Shown here: in pieces, positions 35,481-60,012 of the stretch
Layout: each line of letters begins with the position of its first letter
Position numbering within the stretch: position 1 is the first letter of the stretch
Assembly: GCF_008195825.1 (NCBI RefSeq)
Contig: NZ_CP043329.1
Location: 1,364,001-1,428,000, forward strand
Direction of reading: 5' to 3'
DNA length: 64,000 nucleotides
Source of the DNA: Pedobacter aquae
GTDB lineage: Bacteria > Bacteroidota > Bacteroidia > Sphingobacteriales > Sphingobacteriaceae
The notes under the pieces: model-generated
Databases searched by the model: none
What the model saw: only the letters and a program-made list of their open reading frames with translations
Told to the model about the DNA's origin: nothing
Position numbers and translations under genes: made by a program

Positions 35481-36142
35481 TCAATATTTACTCATATCGA
35501 TATCATCAAAATCTTTAATTTCTGAAAGTTTAGCTAATTGTTTCACATCAATTTTCTTCCAAGTTTCTTTGTAAATCTCTTTCCCTTTAGGGGATACTTT
35601 TACAACCTCTTTAATTAATTTTTTCTTTGTCAAAAATTGATGCTTGTTTCATCAAATGTAATTCCATCAAAAACATAATTACTTCTATAAACGCTTTCAT
35701 AACCAATAAGCTTAAAATCAGTATTTATAGCTTTGAAAACATACATCCAAGAACCATATCTACCATGTTCATAAGAAATATTAAGATTTCCATTTTTAAT
35801 ACTAATAGCTAGTTCTGGAGCATAATAAACGCCTCCATCTTCATGCTCAGAAGAAAAGCAATCGAGGTTTTTTAAAGCCAATTCAAAGGAATCTTTTTTG
35901 TCAAATAAAATGATTATCCCTCTTCGGTTTCGGTCTAATTTTCCACGATATTCATCTACAACAAATTGCTCTTTATCAGTAGCTTTTATAAGCAAAACAA
36001 CATCTTCTATTCCATCCCTATTTAAGTCGCCTTTTATTTCTTCATGAATAATGAAACCTTTAGGCAAAAAATTGCTTACACTCTTAGTTTTTATTTGGCT
36101 AAAAGTTATTAACGTTAAAAAAATAGCAAGTGTAGATTTCAT
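35481..36142 (-). CDS. Exported protein of unknown function, VCBS/FG-GAP-like (frame broken once)
   Basis: The protein has a signal peptide (MKSTLAIFLTLITFSQIKTK) and a stretch GDLNRDGIEDVVLLIKATD resembling the calcium-binding repeat of VCBS/integrin-like proteins. As written, it stops after ETSINF at 35630. Adding one base to the A5 run 35632-35636 continues it for 50 residues (LTKKKLIKEVVKVSPKGKEI to DFDDIDMSKY), a tail I associate with Bacteroidota relatives of this protein. The restored length is 220 aa. It is probably periplasmic or surface-located. It lies next to a small lipocalin-like gene in the same direction. Confidence 0.75.
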
Positions 36143-50515: not shown

Positions 50516-51631
50516 ATGAAAAAAATTCTCATAACTGGCGGAGCCGGTTTTATAGGTTCGCACCTATGCGATGAATTAATTGCTAAAGGTTATGATGTAA
50601 CCGTTTACGACAATCTTTTACCACAAGTACATGGCCACCAAGCGCAAAGACCAGATTATTTAAATAAGAAGGTGCGTTTAATTATAGGCGATGTTAGAGA
50701 TAAAGACCATTTAAAAGATGCTTTACAAGATATAGATGTAGTATTTCATTTTGCTGCCCGTGTAGGTGTTGGACAAAGTATGTACGAAATTAACGAGTAT
50801 ACGGATGTTAACAACCGTGGTACAGCTGTTTTAATGGAGCTATTAGCAGAAAAACCCATCCAAAAATTAATTGTGGCTTCTAGTATGAGTATTTACGGAG
50901 AAGGCTTATATGTATCAGAAAATGGAGAGCGCCACTGCAACATTTCAAGAACTAAAGAACAGTTAAAAAACGGCCATTGGGAGCCTTTAGATAAAGAAAA
51001 TCAGATATTAATTCCCATACCTACTCCAGAAGATAAAACTCCAGATCTAGCATCGGTTTACGCCTTGTCTAAATACGACCAAGAGAAGCTTTGCTTAATT
51101 ACCGGGCAAGCTTACCATATCCCAACGGTTGCTTTAAGATTTTTTAATGTTTACGGTACCAGACAAGCGCTTTCTAACCCGTATACCGGTGTATTAGCCA
51201 TTTTCGCATCCAGATACCTCAATAATAAAGCCCCTATGATTTTTGAAGATGGCTTACAGGAAAGAGATTTTATCCATGTGAAAGATGTATGTAAAGCTTG
51301 TATTCTGGCTATGGAGAAGCCAGAAGCCACTCATCAGGTTTTTAACATTGGTAGCGGCCATAAGTATAACGTTAGGGAAATTGCCCTTCAAATGGCAGAA
51401 GCTTTAGACAAGGCGCATATTATGCCCATCATTAACGGAAAATATCGCGTAGGCGATATCAGGCATTGTTTTGCCGATATCCAAAAGGCAAAAACAGTTT
51501 TAGGTTTTACCCCATCGGTATCTTTTAAATATGGCTTGCAAGAGCTGGCAGCATGGTTAGAAGAGCAGGTTGCTATAGACGAAGTTGATAAAGCTACCCT
51601 AGAGTTAGAGACCCGCGGTTTAACGGTTTAA
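50516..51631 (+). CDS. NAD-dependent sugar epimerase/dehydratase
   Basis: The 371-aa extended SDR has the cofactor loop ITGGAGFIGSHLCDEL, the active-site serine region SSMSIYGEG, the catalytic YALSKYDQEK, RFFNVYGTRQALSNPYTG and the sugar-side QERDFIHVKDVCKA. It resembles UDP-glucose or dTDP-rhamnose 4-epimerases. The exact sugar is unknown. ATG 50516 is used because the longer frame adds non-conserved residues through the leader hairpin. It is the first gene of a nine-gene unit of sugar enzymes. The next gene starts nine bases later. Confidence 0.92.
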   Translation: MKKILITGGAGFIGSHLCDELIAKGYDVTVYDNLLPQVHGHQAQRPDYLNKKVRLIIGDVRDKDHLKDALQDIDVVFHFAARVGVGQSMYEINEYTDVNNRGTAVLMELLAEKPIQKLIVASSMSIYGEGLYVSENGERHCNISRTKEQLKNGHWEPLDKENQILIPIPTPEDKTPDLASVYALSKYDQEKLCLITGQAYHIPTVALRFFNVYGTRQALSNPYTGVLAIFASRYLNNKAPMIFEDGLQERDFIHVKDVCKACILAMEKPEATHQVFNIGSGHKYNVREIALQMAEALDKAHIMPIINGKYRVGDIRHCFADIQKAKTVLGFTPSVSFKYGLQELAAWLEEQVAIDEVDKATLELETRGLTV

Positions 51632-51640
51632 TAAAATAAC

Positions 51641-52552
51641 ATGAGTACAAACGGAATCATAAAACCACAAATAGGCTTACTAGAGTGGTTTCATATTGGC
51701 GAATATGAGCGTGTTGAAAACAGTATAGAACGCTTTCAACAATTAGGTATTAAACACCTAAGAACAGGAATTTCTTGGGCAGATTATTATAGCGAAGAAG
51801 GTGTAAAATGGTATAATTGGCTTATCCCTCGTTTAGCTAAAGAGGTAGAAATTTTACCTTGTTTTTTATATACGCCACCATCAGAAGGCTTATTGCCTAA
51901 AACATCATCGCCACCTAAAAACCCTAAAGCTTTCGCTGATTTTTTAGACACCATAGTAAGCAGCCATGGGAAACATTTTGAATGGGTAGAGCTATGGAAC
52001 GAGCCTAATAACCAAAGCGAATACGATTATACTTTAGACAGGCATTGGTCGGTTTTTACCGATATGATAGGCAAAGCCGCCTATTGGATGAAACAGCTCC
52101 ACAAAAAAACATTATTAGGCGGCATGAGCCCTGTAGACCCCAACTGGTTGCAACTTTTGTTCAACCGCGAAGTGATGAATTATATTGATGTAATTGGTAT
52201 ACATCACTTTCCTCATGTTTTTGATGATAAATGGTACGGCTGGGAGCATCTCATCAATCAAGTAAAAGAAATTATACAGCAAAACAACGGACAGCAAAAA
52301 ATATGGATAACAGAAACGGGCTACTCTACTTGGCAACATGATGAAAGAAAGCAACTTGAAGTGTTTCTTGAAGCCAGCAAAGCCCCTGTAGAGCGTATTT
52401 ATTGGTATGGTTTAAATGATTTAGACCAAAAATACCCTACCGTAGATGGTTTCCATAAAGATGAACGTGAATATACTTTTGGTTTGGTTAAAACCGATGG
52501 AACAGAGAAATTGCTTTATCGCTTATTGGCAGAAAAAAAGCTACTGATTTAG
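51641..52552 (+). CDS. Cytosolic clan GH-A glycosidase-like domain, probably fused to the following epimerase
   Basis: The 303-aa TIM-barrel protein has no signal peptide. The acid/base glutamate is E121 (ELWNEPN) and the nucleophile is E225 (WITETGYST), the clan GH-A pattern resembling GH39/GH5-type glycosidases. Near its end the frame reads GAA AAA AAG CTA CTG ATT TAG. One more A in the A7 run 52533-52539, or a -1 shift at the slippery heptamer A-AAA-AAG, continues without stop into the epimerase frame and gives a 671-aa fusion. A glycosidase inside the cytosol within a glycosyltransferase operon could trim or transfer sugars on an intermediate. Confidence 0.82.
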   Translation: MSTNGIIKPQIGLLEWFHIGEYERVENSIERFQQLGIKHLRTGISWADYYSEEGVKWYNWLIPRLAKEVEILPCFLYTPPSEGLLPKTSSPPKNPKAFADFLDTIVSSHGKHFEWVELWNEPNNQSEYDYTLDRHWSVFTDMIGKAAYWMKQLHKKTLLGGMSPVDPNWLQLLFNREVMNYIDVIGIHHFPHVFDDKWYGWEHLINQVKEIIQQNNGQQKIWITETGYSTWQHDERKQLEVFLEASKAPVERIYWYGLNDLDQKYPTVDGFHKDEREYTFGLVKTDGTEKLLYRLLAEKKLLI

Positions 52553-53655
52553 GAACCGATAAATGGTTATCCTCTAGCTATAAAACCTTCCACAATAAAA
52601 AGAGTAATCTCATTTTTGGTGGCGCAGGCTTTATAGGAACCAATATGGCTAAAACCTTACTCGATAAAGGCGAATATGTAACCATCTTTGATAACCTCAG
52701 CAGACCCGGAGTAGAAAGAAATTTACGCTGGTTAAAAGAGCAATATCCAGAAAAACTCAATATTGAAATTGCCGATATTAGAAATAAATACGCTGTTCAT
52801 CAAGCGGTAGCTCAGGCAGATTTTGTTTTTCATTTTGCAGCTCAAGTGGCTGTAACCACCAGTTGCGAGTATCCTGAAACAGATTTTGACATCAATGCTA
52901 AGGGTACTTTAAACATTTTAGAAGCTATTAAAAATAGCCAGCACCAACCTCCTATCCTATTTACCTCTACCAATAAAGTTTATGGTGCTTTAGATGATAT
53001 AGATTTAGTTTTAGAAAATAACAGATACCAACCTGCTGATGACCATATTCTTGAACATGGCGTTGCAGAAAGCAGAAAGCTTGATTTTCATAGTCCTTAT
53101 GGCTGTTCTAAAGGTATTGCCGATAGCTATATCCAAGACTATATCAGAACATTTGGTATTAAAGGCACCATTTTTAGGATGAGCTGTATTTACGGCCCGC
53201 ATCAATTTGGTACAGAAGACCAAGGTTGGGTTGCCCATTTCTTACTTAAAGCTATGCGAAATGAGCCTTTAACCATTTATGGCGATGGTAAACAGGTAAG
53301 AGACATTTTATTTGTGGAAGATTTAATTGAAGCCATGTTAATAGCTAAAAACCAAATAGATAAGGTTAACGGAATGGCCTTTAATATGGGTGGTGGTGCA
53401 TCTAACAGCATCAGCTTATTAGAATTGGTTGCTAAGATTAATGATTTACAAGACACTAAAATCCCTTTAAAATTTAGCGAATGGCGCCCAGGCGACCAAA
53501 AATATTACGTTTCTGATACCCGCCTTTTTAAAAATTTAAGCAGTTGGGAGGCACAAACATCAGCTCATGAGGGTATTAAAAAGCTGTACTACTGGCTCTT
53601 GAATGTGCAAGACAAAGCCACCCTACAACAAAAAGCTAAAAAAGTAATTGTATGA
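52540..53655 (+). CDS. NAD-dependent epimerase, CDP-paratose 2-epimerase-like (no own start codon visible)
   Basis: This extended SDR has the cofactor loop NLIFGGAGFIGTNMAKTL, FTSTNKVYG, HGVAESRKLDFHSPYGCSKG and MSCIYGPHQFGTEDQGWVAH, close to CDP-paratose/tyvelose 2-epimerases. The first in-frame ATG (52645) comes after the glycine loop, and no ATG, GTG or TTG lies between the previous stop in this frame and that loop. The domain is therefore best explained as the C-terminal half of a glycosidase-epimerase fusion. The end overlaps the next gene by four bases. The sugar substrate is unknown. Confidence 0.82.
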   Translation, partial: ATDLGTDKWLSSSYKTFHNKKSNLIFGGAGFIGTNMAKTLLDKGEYVTIFDNLSRPGVERNLRWLKEQYPEKLNIEIADIRNKYAVHQAVAQADFVFHFAAQVAVTTSCEYPETDFDINAKGTLNILEAIKNSQHQPPILFTSTNKVYGALDDIDLVLENNRYQPADDHILEHGVAESRKLDFHSPYGCSKGIADSYIQDYIRTFGIKGTIFRMSCIYGPHQFGTEDQGWVAHFLLKAMRNEPLTIYGDGKQVRDILFVEDLIEAMLIAKNQIDKVNGMAFNMGGGASNSISLLELVAKINDLQDTKIPLKFSEWRPGDQKYYVSDTRLFKNLSSWEAQTSAHEGIKKLYYWLLNVQDKATLQQKAKKVIV

Positions 53656-54659
53656 TAGCACCATCTATAGCCAAAGAAGAAGAAATTAAAGATATAACAC
53701 TTTATCAGGCTGCTGTTTTAGAACATCCTAGGCATTTTACCCTTCGTGATGAACAACTAAGAGAGCCACAAGATGATGAAGTTTGTGTGAAGCTACAAGG
53801 TTGCGGCCTTTGCGCATCCAGCATACCTTTATGGCAGGGGCGCCAGTGGTTCACTTATCCCGCAGAGGCTGGTGCCCCAGGCCATGAGGCTTGGGGAATT
53901 GTTCATGCAGTAGGTAAAAACATCCATCCCGATTTAATTGGAAAACGTGTGGCTTTATTATCTCATCATGGTTTTGCTCATTATGATTATGTTACCGAAA
54001 ATCAATTACTCATCATCCCAAATGAGTTGGCAAACATACCTTTCCCTGGTGAACCATTAGCGTGTGCCGTTAATATTTTTAGACGTAGTAATATCCAAAA
54101 AGACCAAACAGTTGCTATAATAGGTATGGGCTTTTTAGGGCTTTTACTTTTACAATTAGCCAAGCACAAAGGAGCTAAAGTTATGGCACTTTCTAGAAGA
54201 AGCTTTGCTTTAGAATTAGCTAAAGAAATGTCTGCTGATGAGCAAATTATCTTAGATGATCATTACCAAATTATAGAACAGGTAAGAGGTTTAACTGATG
54301 GCCAATTTTGCGACCATGTCATAGAATGTACAGGTAAAGAATGGCCCCTAAACCTAGCTGGCGAACTTTGTAAAGAAAGAGGACAAATCACCATTGCGGG
54401 CTATCATCAAGATGGAATGCGACAAGTAAATATCCAGCAATGGAACTGGAAAGGTTTAGATGTGATTAACGCCCATGAAAGAGACCCACAACAATACATG
54501 AAAGGTATGCAAGAGGCTTTAGATTTGGTAAGTAATGCTACGCTAAAACCCCATAAATTATACACTCACCACTTTCCTTTGGCGCAAATAAACGATGCTT
54601 TTGCTTTACAAGAAGATGCGCCAGAAGGTTATGTCAAAGCTTATATAGAATTTAATTGA
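53652..54659 (+). CDS. Medium-chain alcohol dehydrogenase-like oxidoreductase
   Basis: The 335-aa MDR protein has the catalytic-zinc-like GCGLCASSIPLWQG and GAPGHEAWGIVHAVG, and the nucleotide loop VAIIGMGFLGLLLLQLA. The four-cysteine structural zinc lobe is absent. It may oxidise or reduce a sugar or polyol intermediate in the operon pathway; this is inference. Its start overlaps the epimerase stop by four bases and its stop overlaps the next ATG by one base, so translation is tightly coupled. Confidence 0.88.
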   Translation: MIAPSIAKEEEIKDITLYQAAVLEHPRHFTLRDEQLREPQDDEVCVKLQGCGLCASSIPLWQGRQWFTYPAEAGAPGHEAWGIVHAVGKNIHPDLIGKRVALLSHHGFAHYDYVTENQLLIIPNELANIPFPGEPLACAVNIFRRSNIQKDQTVAIIGMGFLGLLLLQLAKHKGAKVMALSRRSFALELAKEMSADEQIILDDHYQIIEQVRGLTDGQFCDHVIECTGKEWPLNLAGELCKERGQITIAGYHQDGMRQVNIQQWNWKGLDVINAHERDPQQYMKGMQEALDLVSNATLKPHKLYTHHFPLAQINDAFALQEDAPEGYVKAYIEFN

Positions 54660-55651
54660 TGATGGAGAATTATAAACCAAGTTTAGGATTTTTAGGCGTT
54701 GGCTGGATAGGTAAAAACAGAATGAAGGCTGTAGCACAAGCCAACATTGCTGAAATTACGGTTATTGCAGACCAATCTGTAGAAATATTATCTGCTGTAA
54801 ACCTTGATAAACAAGTATTTAAAGCCAATAATCTTAATGGTTTATTAAGTTACCAACCAGACGCTGTAGTTATTGCTACGCCTAGTGCTATGCATACGCA
54901 GCAATGTTTAGAGGCTTTAAATCATCAAACAGCAGTATTTTGCCAGAAACCTTTAGGCAGAAATGCCCTAGAAACTGCTGAAATTATAGAAACAGCGAAA
55001 AAGCAAAATCGCTTATTAGGGGTTGATTTTTCTTACCGATTTACTTGTTTTAAAGCCTTGCACCACCTTATAAGTGAAGGCCAATTAGGTAAAATACATG
55101 CTATAGAAATGTGTTTTCATAATGCCTACGGACCAGATAAAGGATGGTTTTACCAAAAGCAGCTTTCTGGTGGTGGTTGTGTAATAGATCTAGGCGTACA
55201 CCTGATAGACCTCGCCTTTTGGTGTTTGGGAAACCAAGCTATTAGCGTTAAAAATTCGCTTTTATATGCTAAAGGAAAAAGATTAAAATACCCGGTGCAG
55301 GAAGTAGAAGACTATGCTGTAGCTATTATGGAGGCAGAAGACGGCACTGCCTTACAGCTTAATTGCTCGTGGAATTTACCTGCCGGGAAAGAAGCAGAAA
55401 TATATTTTAAAGTTTACGGCGAGTATGGTGGCGCTGCTTTCCAAAATAAAAATGGCTCTTTTTATGATTTTGAAGTCTTGAAGTTTGAAGGTACAAAAAC
55501 CACTGTTTTAGAAAGCGGCAAGGCAAACTGGGGCGGTAAAGCACTTATTCATTGGTGTAAACAATTGGCTGTTAGTAAAGCCTATCATCCAGAAATAGAG
55601 GGCGCCTTAAAAGTTTCTCAAGTAATTGATGCTATTTATGAAAAAGCCTAA
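54659..55651 (+). CDS. Gfo/Idh/MocA-family oxidoreductase
   Basis: The 330-aa NAD(P)-dependent sugar oxidoreductase has the N-terminal loop GFLGVGWIGKNRMKAVA, the family EKP-like motif as CQKPLGRNALE and the C-terminal GGGCVIDLGVHLIDLAFW catalytic region. Such enzymes oxidise or reduce hydroxyl groups on sugars, inositols or nucleotide sugars. Two successive oxidoreductases and two epimerases in the operon imply production of a modified sugar. It overlaps both neighbours (1 and 14 bases). Confidence 0.9.
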   Translation: MMENYKPSLGFLGVGWIGKNRMKAVAQANIAEITVIADQSVEILSAVNLDKQVFKANNLNGLLSYQPDAVVIATPSAMHTQQCLEALNHQTAVFCQKPLGRNALETAEIIETAKKQNRLLGVDFSYRFTCFKALHHLISEGQLGKIHAIEMCFHNAYGPDKGWFYQKQLSGGGCVIDLGVHLIDLAFWCLGNQAISVKNSLLYAKGKRLKYPVQEVEDYAVAIMEAEDGTALQLNCSWNLPAGKEAEIYFKVYGEYGGAAFQNKNGSFYDFEVLKFEGTKTTVLESGKANWGGKALIHWCKQLAVSKAYHPEIEGALKVSQVIDAIYEKA

Positions 55652-56732
55652 TAAAATACTCATGACAGCAGATACCATTGGCGGTGTTTGGACTTATGCC
55701 ATAGACCTTGCAGACTGTCTTAGTAAAAAAGGCATTCGTGTGCATTTAGCTACTATGGGGGCTTTCGCCGATGAAGACCAGGTTGAACAAGCAAAAAAAA
55801 TCAAAAACTTAAAACTTTACCAAAGCAATTATAAACTAGAGTGGATGGATAACCCTTGGCATGATGTTGATGCTGCTGGCCATTGGTTATTAGAACTTCA
55901 GGAAAACATAAAACCCAATTTAATTCATTTAAACAATTACTGTCATGGTCATTTACCATGGAAAGCCCCTGTTTTAATGGTTTGCCATTCTTGTGTTTTA
56001 TCTTGGTGGCAGGCGGTTAAAAATGAGGATGCTCCGCCCTATTTTCAAGAATATCAGCAAAGAGTACAAGCAGGTTTGCAAGCTGCAGATTTGGTAATTG
56101 CTCCTACACAAGCTATGCTCAATAGCATTTGTCATATTTACGGCGATTTATCGCTTAAAAAAACAATTCCTAATGGTTCTTCCATACAGCATCAAGATCC
56201 TAAAAAAGAAGATTTTATCTTTTGCATGGGGCGTATTTGGGATGAAGCTAAAAACATCAGTTTGCTGAATAAAATTACCCATTTGGTGAAATGGCCTATT
56301 TTAACGGCCGGCGATCAGCAGCTGGAAAATAAAGCATCAACATCATTTACAGGCTTAGAAAGTTTAGGAAGGTTATCATCGGCTTTAGCTATAAAAACAT
56401 TAGAAAAAGCAGCTATTTACGTTTTACCTGCTAAGTACGAACCTTTTGGACTCTCTGTTTTAGAAGCCGCACAGGCTTCTTGTGTATTAGTTTTGGGCGA
56501 TATCCCAAGCTTAAAAGAAAACTGGCAAGACGCTGCATTTTTTGTTGATACGGATGATGCTCTGGCTTTAGCCATGCTTCTGAATATGTTGATAGAAGAC
56601 CCAGAACTGAGAGAAATTTATAGCAAAAAGGCTTATGAACGAGCGCAAGAATTTAAAAGCAGTCAAACAGCCCATCATTACCAAATGGCTTACCACCAAT
56701 TATTAAATGAAACCACATCTACCTCTATCTAA
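55638..56732 (+). CDS. Family 4 glycosyltransferase
   Basis: The 364-aa GT-B enzyme starts KILMTADTIGGVWTYAIDLA (ADP/UDP-glucose-type opening). It has the C-terminal donor-binding EX7E-like stretch AKYEPFGLSVLEAAQASC preceded by FCMGRIWDEAKN. ATG 55638 is chosen; the gene overlaps the previous one by 14 bases. It is likely to transfer the first or a core sugar in the pathway, while the three CgeB-like genes that follow add others. No membrane segments are seen. Confidence 0.9.
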   Translation: MKKPNKILMTADTIGGVWTYAIDLADCLSKKGIRVHLATMGAFADEDQVEQAKKIKNLKLYQSNYKLEWMDNPWHDVDAAGHWLLELQENIKPNLIHLNNYCHGHLPWKAPVLMVCHSCVLSWWQAVKNEDAPPYFQEYQQRVQAGLQAADLVIAPTQAMLNSICHIYGDLSLKKTIPNGSSIQHQDPKKEDFIFCMGRIWDEAKNISLLNKITHLVKWPILTAGDQQLENKASTSFTGLESLGRLSSALAIKTLEKAAIYVLPAKYEPFGLSVLEAAQASCVLVLGDIPSLKENWQDAAFFVDTDDALALAMLLNMLIEDPELREIYSKKAYERAQEFKSSQTAHHYQMAYHQLLNETTSTSI

Positions 56733-56733
56733 T

Positions 56734-57834
56734 ATGAAAATTATACTTTTTTATCACTCTTTAATATCTGATTGGAACCACGGAAACGCCCATTTCTTAC
56801 GTGGCATTTGTACAGAGCTTATCAGATGCGGGCATGAAGTTACCGTAATGGAACCAGAAGATAACTGGAGCTTAAAAAACTTATTAGAAACACGTGGAGA
56901 TGTGATTTGGGATGAGTTCGAACACTTTTATCCGAAACTTAAAACTAGATTTTATAATCCTCAAAACCCAGATTTTTCTGAAGCGCTTTTATTTGCAGAT
57001 TTGGTTTTGGTACACGAGTGGAATGAGCATCATATCGTAAAAATATTAGGCACTTTAAAGCAGCAATTTGGTTATAAACTACTTTTTCATGATACCCACC
57101 ACAGGGCTGTTACAGATAAAGATGGTATTGCAGATTACGATTTAAGTAAATACGATGGCGTTTTGGCTTTTGGCAATGTGATAAGAGATTTATACCTGCA
57201 AAATAAGTGGGCAAAAAAAGCTTGGACATGGCATGAAGCCGCTGATACAGAAATTTTTAAACCCTTAGCGGGGATAGCAAAAACAGGCGATTTGGTGTGG
57301 GTTGGTAATTGGGGCGATGATGAACGAACCGAAGAATTGATTGAGTTTTTGATAAAACCTGTTCAAACTTTAGGATTAAAAGCTACCATGTATGGCGTAC
57401 GTTATCCAGAGCATGCACTAAAATTATTACAAGAAGCAGGTATACATTATGGCGGTTATATTCCATCTTACCAGGTACCACAAGTGTTTGCTCAGCATCG
57501 TTTTACAGTACATATTCCTAGAAGACCTTATACCCAATTTTTGCCTGGCATACCTACCATTAGGCCATTTGAGGCTTTGGCTTGCGGTATTCCGCTGATT
57601 TCTGCCCCTTGGCAGGATACGGAAAATTTATTTCAAGTAGGAGATGATTTCCTCATGGTTAAAAACGGCGAAGAAATGATACAAACCATGCAGCAATTAT
57701 TAGCCAATGAAAACTTACAAAAAAAACTCAGCAAACAAGGTTTAGAAACCATTGCGAAAAAGCATAATTGCCAGCAAAGGGTTAAAGAACTTATCAATAT
57801 TTACGATCAGATAAACGAAAAAATCATCATCTAA
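56734..57834 (+). CDS. CgeB-like glycosyltransferase 1
   Basis: The 366-aa protein has the CgeB/DUF3880 layout. The N-terminal half reads ILFYHSLISDWNHGNAHFLRG and CGHEVTVMEPEDNW. The C-terminal Glyco_trans_1_2 domain contains LVWVGNWGDDERTEELIEF, AGIHYGGYIPSYQVPQVF and IRPFEALACGIPLISAPW. CgeB is a spore-crust glycosyltransferase in Bacillus; relatives in non-spore-formers are uncharacterised. It starts one base after the GT4 gene. The paralogues downstream share the N-terminal pattern, so the three arose by duplication. Confidence 0.88.
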   Translation: MKIILFYHSLISDWNHGNAHFLRGICTELIRCGHEVTVMEPEDNWSLKNLLETRGDVIWDEFEHFYPKLKTRFYNPQNPDFSEALLFADLVLVHEWNEHHIVKILGTLKQQFGYKLLFHDTHHRAVTDKDGIADYDLSKYDGVLAFGNVIRDLYLQNKWAKKAWTWHEAADTEIFKPLAGIAKTGDLVWVGNWGDDERTEELIEFLIKPVQTLGLKATMYGVRYPEHALKLLQEAGIHYGGYIPSYQVPQVFAQHRFTVHIPRRPYTQFLPGIPTIRPFEALACGIPLISAPWQDTENLFQVGDDFLMVKNGEEMIQTMQQLLANENLQKKLSKQGLETIAKKHNCQQRVKELINIYDQINEKIII

Positions 57835-57837
57835 AAC

Positions 57838-58929
57838 ATGGAAAACACTTATAAAATAGCTTTTTTAGGATCTAGTTTGCTTTCTGCCTATTGGAACGGA
57901 GCTGCTACTTATTACCGTGGAATTATTAAAGAACTGTATAAACTGGGGCATGAGGTTACTTTTTTTGAACCCGATATTTATGATAGGCAACAACACCGAG
58001 ATTTACCAGATGTAGATTGGGCAACATCAGTGGTTTACGATGCACATTTAAACGAAGTAGAAAAACTTGTAAGTAATTTAAATGATTTTGATATCATCAT
58101 TAAAACCAGCGGAATTGGCGCTTTTGATAATTTTTTCGAGCAAAAACTGCCTGATTATAAGCAAGAACATCAATTACTAATATTTTGGGATGTTGATGCG
58201 CCAGCAACTTTAGATAGGATGCGCCAAAACCCGAAAGATGCTTTCAGAGAAAATCTGCAAAAGTTTGATTTGATACTTACTTACGGTGGCGGACAACCTG
58301 TTATTGATGCTTACCTTTCTTTTGGCGCTAAAGCTTGTATACCCGTTTACAATGCGCTAGACCCAGAAACGCATTTCCCAACCGCTACAAACCCAGCCTT
58401 TGAATGTGATTTGGCTTTTCTAGGTAACCGCTTACCTGATAGGGAAACTAGGGTTGAAGATTTTTTTATTAATGCTGCGCAACAATTGCCTCAAAAGCAG
58501 TTTCTTTTAGGTGGCAGCGGATGGGAAAATAAAGACCTTCCGCAAAACATCAAATTGGCTGGTCATGTCTATACCAAAGACCATAACGCTTTAAATTGTA
58601 CTGCTCTTGCTGTGCTTAACATCAGTAGAGATAGCATGGCGGCTTATGGCTTTTCGCCCGCTACAAGGGTGTTTGAAGCAGCTGGTGCTGGTGCTTGTAT
58701 CATTACCGATGATTGGCTGGGTATAGATTATTTTTTTGAACCCGATATTGAAATATTGGTTGCCAAAAACGGACAAGAAGTAGCCGATATTTTAGCTAAC
58801 CTTACACCAGAGCGAGCTAAACTTATTGGCTCAGCTGCTTTAAAACGAGTTTTAAGAGACCACACATATACTTTAAGAGCTGAAGAAGTGCAAGCTATTT
58901 TTAAACAATACATCACACATAAAAATTAA
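57838..58929 (+). CDS. CgeB-like glycosyltransferase 2
   Basis: This 363-aa paralogue of the preceding gene has IAFLGSSLLSAYWNGAATYY, LGHEVTFFEPDIYD and the donor-domain FECDLAFLGNRLPDRETRVE, SPATRVFEAAGAGACIITDD. It starts three bases after the previous stop. It is closer to the third copy than to the first (shared HEVTFFE and RVFEAA-type blocks). It is presumably cytosolic. Donor and acceptor are unknown. Confidence 0.88.
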   Translation: MENTYKIAFLGSSLLSAYWNGAATYYRGIIKELYKLGHEVTFFEPDIYDRQQHRDLPDVDWATSVVYDAHLNEVEKLVSNLNDFDIIIKTSGIGAFDNFFEQKLPDYKQEHQLLIFWDVDAPATLDRMRQNPKDAFRENLQKFDLILTYGGGQPVIDAYLSFGAKACIPVYNALDPETHFPTATNPAFECDLAFLGNRLPDRETRVEDFFINAAQQLPQKQFLLGGSGWENKDLPQNIKLAGHVYTKDHNALNCTALAVLNISRDSMAAYGFSPATRVFEAAGAGACIITDDWLGIDYFFEPDIEILVAKNGQEVADILANLTPERAKLIGSAALKRVLRDHTYTLRAEEVQAIFKQYITHKN

Positions 58930-58933
58930 GATT

Positions 58934-60012
58934 ATGAATATTTGTATTTTAGGTTTATCTATTACATCATCTTGGGGAAATGGCCATGCTACTACTTTTA
59001 GGGCATTGGTAAAACAACTTTATTTACAAGGCCATGAGGTTACATTTTTTGAGCGAGATGTACCTTGGTATGCCTCGCAAAGAGATTTGCCCCAACCACC
59101 CTATTGCAAATTGGTATTATATAAAGATTTAGAAGAATTAACCGCTAACTATACACCATTTATAACGCAGGCAGATTTGGTAATGGTAGGTTCTTACGTA
59201 CCGGAAGGCGTAGCCGTTGCCAGTTGGGTATTTAGTTTTGCCAGTGGGATAAAAGCTTTTTATGATATAGATACCCCAGTTACCTTAGCTAAAATAGAAC
59301 GAGAAGATTACGAATATTTGCACCCAGATGATATAGCTCTTTTTGATCTTTATTTATCTTTTACGGGCGGCCCAATCCTTTCCTTATTGATGCAAAAATA
59401 TGGTTCACCAATGGCTAAACCATTATATTGTTCTGTAGATACCGAATTATACTTCCCTACCAAAACTCCTAAAATTTACGATTTAGCTTATTTAGGAACT
59501 TACAGTATAGACAGGCAAGCGCCTTTAGATAAACTTTTAACAGAGGCTGCCCAGCAATGGTCAGAAGGTAATTTTGCGGTTATGGGCCCACAATATCCAG
59601 AACATATCACTTGGCCAAAAAACGTTATTAGGAAAGAGCATTTAGCACCGTCACAACATAATTTATTTTACAACCAGCAAAGGTTTACCTTAAATATCAC
59701 CCGGGCGGATATGGTAAAATGGGGATATGCACCAAGTGTAAGATTATTTGAAGCCGCCGCCGCTGGTACACCTATTATTTCTGATTATTGGGAAGGTTTA
59801 GATTCTTTTTTGCTTTAAATGATGAAATATTGATCGCCCAAAACGCACAGGATACACTATCCTATTTGCTAGACATGAGCGATTCTAAAAGGCTAGACAT
59901 TGCCCACCGAGCTTTACAAAAAGTATTGAAAAACCATTCATCTGCCGTAAGGGCCAAAGAACTTATCAGCTATACACAAGAAGCTATTAACAAACAAAGC
60001 ATTTCTAACTAA
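58934..60012 (+). CDS. CgeB-like glycosyltransferase 3 (frame broken once)
   Basis: This third paralogue has ICILGLSITSSWGNGHATTF, GHEVTFFERDVPWYASQRDL, YDLAYLGTYSIDRQAPLDKL and SVRLFEAAAAGTPIISDYWE. As written, it stops after GLDSFLL at 59818. One extra base in the T6 run 59806-59811 continues it as GLDSFFALNDEILIAQNAQD to 60012, giving 359 aa, the same length as its two neighbours. It starts four bases after copy 2. A small charged protein follows ten bases later. Confidence 0.88.

Follow-up and report, generated by a model that had tools for sequence, protein, structure and literature searches.

A 64,000 nucleotide stretch of the Pedobacter aquae genome (RefSeq accession number NZ_CP043329.1; coordinates 1364001 to 1428000), here called the window and numbered from its first base, includes a glycosidase-like domain of clan GH-A and an epimerase-like domain that are encoded in adjacent reading frames and meet at a run of seven adenines. 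This arrangement raises the question of whether the locus is a fixed fusion gene from which a base is missing, or a gene in which a programmed -1 shift would give rise to both a short and a long product, as the first-pass annotation had allowed. The features of the locus are as follows.

51641 to 52552, plus strand: GH-A half of the fusion gene (TIM barrel, PslG/GH39-like), with an ORF, an AlphaFold model, a match to PslG (5bx9) and a putative catalytic Glu
52533 to 52539, plus strand: A7 homopolymer, site of the frame break; the alignment of the joined frames with Telluribacter is gap-free here
52540 to 53655, plus strand: CDP-tyvelose-2-epimerase-like half, in frame 1 and without a start codon before GGAGFIG (phmmer matches to 9rl0 and 1orr; PF01370, E=1.5e-47)

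The ORF at 51641–52552 encodes 303 aa, of which those encoded beyond the A7 run are read in the wrong frame. The epimerase frame lies one base back from that of the GH-A ORF and extends to 53655. In the epimerase frame, the closest stop on the upstream side lies at 52489 and the first ATG, GTG or TTG is the ATG at 52645, right behind the GGAGFIG loop (52624–52644), in agreement with the earlier observation that the epimerase has no start ahead of its cofactor loop. The sequence at 52529–52540 is GCA GAA AAA AAG, in which the A7 run is read as A_AAA_AAG in the zero frame. A zero-frame stop (TAG) is found three codons past this heptamer, and a -1 reading at the run joins the GH-A and epimerase domains in a protein of 671 aa; the first-pass description of the junction could thus be read directly in the sequence.

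The GH and epimerase domains were found in one uninterrupted frame in 51 of 52 related loci from Cytophagales, Verrucomicrobiota, Proteobacteria and others, and the remaining locus (L056) stops at the end of its contig. In each of the 51 complete loci, a single open frame of ~660–1020 codons from stop to stop spans both domains. These single-frame fusions share their domain order and operon neighbours with the fusion in the window. The alignment of the -1-joined window protein with the Telluribacter fusion, which shares 75% identity in the GH half and 64% in the epimerase half, has no gap at the junction (TEKLLYRLLAEKKATDLGTDKW versus TEKLLYRLLCEKSPRELESDKW). As the fusion occupies a single frame in 51 of 52 loci and the junction is free of gaps, the fusion is normal among the relatives and the break is peculiar to the window sequence; the gene is intact in all complete relatives and split only in the Pedobacter aquae assembly. 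Two separate genes in close relatives, which the first-pass annotation had set against a fusion, were not found among the 52 loci, and its proposal that a missing base hides a fixed 671-aa fusion is borne out by the 51 complete loci and by the Telluribacter junction.

Homologues of the GH half are present in Telluribacter, Pontibacter, Rufibacter, Hymenobacter, Adhaeribacter, Verrucomicrobiota, Proteobacteria and others, and this half was also matched in 149 plasmid records. In public records, the fusion appears as one CDS of ~2 kb with the name 'NAD-dependent epimerase/dehydratase family protein'. It is annotated as a CDS in Rhizobium, Tistrella, Geminicoccaceae and Xanthomonas sacchari, and unannotated homologues occur in Telluribacter, Pontibacter, Rufibacter and Hymenobacter. 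A literature search for the fusion found nothing. The expectation that either form would be new holds weakly, because the fusion was already on record as a single CDS.

A programmed -1 shift at A_AAA_AAG would yield a 303-aa glycosidase alongside the 671-aa fusion and, as in dnaX, the window has the heptamer in phase and a zero-frame stop close by. However, no shift is needed to produce the fusion in any of the complete relatives; the two-frame layout was conserved in none of the 51 complete loci, and an in-phase slippery heptamer was located near the junction in only one of them. The 61 nt 3' of the run folded no better than shuffled sequences (z -0.60; 45 of 200 shuffles folded at least as well), and an internal Shine-Dalgarno-like sequence ~10 nt upstream was not seen, by eye, in ...TTGCTTTATCGCTTATTGGCAG before the run. 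The three further dnaX-type marks beyond the heptamer, namely an internal Shine-Dalgarno sequence, an above-chance hairpin and conservation, were thus all missing at this site, and programmed shifting is not supported by them. The heptamer is itself weak evidence, because A_AAA_AAG is frequent in this AT-rich genome, occurring in phase 63 times in 444 ORFs of at least 250 aa (which contain 2437 in-phase X_XXY_YYZ heptamers), and because roughly one in three breaks in A7G runs would look in phase. Given also that single bases are lost at homopolymers throughout the assembly, including in single-copy housekeeping genes (see below), a programmed shift is extremely improbable.

About 860 kb of the Pedobacter aquae genome, made up of 40 stretches and the window, was set against the genes of G013, a close congener. 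A raw count of DNA gaps relative to the relatives was uninformative, as it mixes intergenic and diverged sequence, and reading frames were compared gene by gene instead. Frameshifts in the Pedobacter aquae assembly were found in 20 of the 314 genes matched to G013 (~6%), and the reverse comparison found none in 310 genes. DNA alignment revealed that each of the 20 genes is short by a net one base at the break, which in nearly every case falls within a homopolymer or next to one, with an A8-to-A7 difference in one of the 20 genes. Broken genes include uvrA, hemE, rimO, metF and fba; a whole-genome search recovered hemE and fba only as two fragments each, with no intact copy, and the two uvrA copies are likewise split.

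G000:C1 2045743-2048456, 2050359-2051368, 659760-660805 and 2339230-2341976: split uvrA (both copies), hemE and fba, each in two frames

Breaks of this kind in genes for heme synthesis and glycolysis would not be expected in a living cell, and they therefore indicate a systematic loss of bases in the assembly. Deletions at homopolymers of 2–8 bases, which fragment genes, are the typical error in long-read assemblies (PMC12007338), and we infer that long-read error may be the source here. The sequence comparisons make it highly likely that the locus encodes a fixed two-domain fusion of ~671 aa, and that the break at the A7 run is a one-base assembly error and not a programmed event.

A further gene in the window, at 35481–36142 on the minus strand, is split into ORFs of 170 aa and 50 aa. 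Its homologue in a congener is a single ORF of 224 aa (L160:6547-7218:-) with no Pfam match.

The genetic context of the fusion was also examined. The fusion occupies second place in an eight-gene glycan or nucleotide-sugar cluster that is conserved among relatives, and 34 of the 52 loci share the gene order E1-GH/EP-ADH-GFO-GT-GT-GT-GT. The other genes of the operon in the window are as follows.

50516 to 51631, plus strand: NAD-dependent sugar epimerase/dehydratase, first gene of the operon (PF01370, E=2e-52; 72% identity to the Telluribacter homologue)
53652 to 54659, plus strand: zinc-binding alcohol-dehydrogenase-like protein (PF00107; syntenic in relatives)
54656 to 55651, plus strand: Gfo/Idh/MocA oxidoreductase (PF01408, PF22725; syntenic in relatives)
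55638 to 56732, plus strand: GT4-like glycosyltransferase (PF00534, PF13439; syntenic in relatives)
56734 to 57834, plus strand: glycosyltransferase (PF13524; syntenic in relatives)
57838 to 58929, plus strand: glycosyltransferase (PF13524; syntenic in relatives)
58934 to 60012, plus strand: last glycosyltransferase (PF13524), frame-broken, with a T6 run near 59812 and the remainder in frame 1

The Telluribacter homologue of the last glycosyltransferase is one ORF of 365 aa, and relatives have a single ORF of about this length. The match in the window stops at 59812 and the rest of the C-terminal region is read one frame back as far as 60012, a break in the same direction as that in the fusion gene. 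It could be argued that these are real one-base deletions in a horizontally acquired operon undergoing decay. Breaks affect two of the eight operon genes where ~0.6 would be expected (P ~0.12), a slight excess that decay would also give, and the operon is judged to be accessory as a search of 59 relatives, including 17 congeners, did not recover the GH half. However, the remaining operon genes are intact, as are the GH and epimerase ORFs apart from the break, and the finding of like breaks, always a base loss, across the genome and in single-copy hemE and fba makes a cause specific to the operon unnecessary. True decay is therefore very unlikely, and assembly error remains the preferred explanation for the break in the fusion gene.

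Some relatives have additional genes at this locus. In plasmids of the alphaproteobacterial Tistrella (L060) and Geminicoccaceae (L174), a TIGR04295 B12 radical SAM protein is encoded directly after the fusion gene. A TIGR04290 methyltransferase is encoded near the fusion in Geminicoccaceae and Xanthomonas sacchari, and closes the cluster in L174. A literature search for TIGR04290 and TIGR04295 found nothing.

The N-terminal domain of the fusion was modelled as a confident TIM barrel (AlphaFold pLDDT 92.5), and its best fold match in the PDB is PslG (5bx9; E=1.5e-17, TM 0.80 by query), a glycosidase of the GH39 type that belongs to the Psl polysaccharide cluster in Pseudomonas aeruginosa. The setting in a polysaccharide-type gene cluster is a further likeness to PslG. 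However, the window barrel shares 19% identity with PslG, is ~110 residues shorter and is fused to an epimerase. No significant sequence match of the GH half was found in the PDB, and searches of curated families returned only a sub-threshold match to GH1 (18.7 versus 22.6 bits) and none to GH39; NCBIfam gave no match for this half. Putative catalytic Glu residues in the window were assigned by motif, in WNEPN (acid/base, NEP) and WITETG (nucleophile). The acid/base Glu is replaced by K or Q in L045, L050, L054, L055 and L057, and the nucleophile Glu by A in L044, these members belonging to Verrucomicrobiota and Hymenobacter. Replacement of the Glu residues suggests that the barrel is non-hydrolytic in some lineages.

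The C-terminal domain matched solved CDP-tyvelose 2-epimerases by phmmer (9rl0, E=1.2e-86; 1orr, E=1.1e-79), with a match to the full domain in both sequence and fold that includes the GxxGxxG motif of the NAD loop and the YxxxK region. The solved enzymes are stand-alone proteins, whereas the candidate epimerase of the window is fused to a GH-A barrel. One CDP-tyvelose 2-epimerase is described as turning CDP-glucose into CDP-mannose (PMC13098431). When the Telluribacter fusion was modelled at full length, both domains were folded (pLDDT 83).

The conservation of the fusion and the artefact rest on sequence, and the biochemical role is one that we infer. The epimerase half would remodel a sugar nucleotide, probably a CDP-sugar, from which the neighbouring dehydrogenases and four glycosyltransferases would build a glycan, and the PslG-like barrel may trim, transfer or hold the resulting glycan. 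The cluster would most likely make a glycan for the cell surface or for storage, or a glycoside; the fusion would provide both an epimerised sugar nucleotide and a barrel that acts on the product. We tentatively raise the possibility that this fusion, conserved but uncharacterised, is a bifunctional enzyme of a widespread eight-gene glycan cluster, in which a PslG-like barrel works together with a CDP-sugar 2-epimerase. In lineages that have lost the catalytic Glu residues, the barrel may serve for binding and not for hydrolysis.

These findings remove one false case of programmed frameshifting, and other claims of frameshifts, pseudogenes or split genes made from the Pedobacter aquae assembly deserve distrust. 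The real biology at this locus is a widespread GH/epimerase fusion, for which the database name covers the epimerase half alone.
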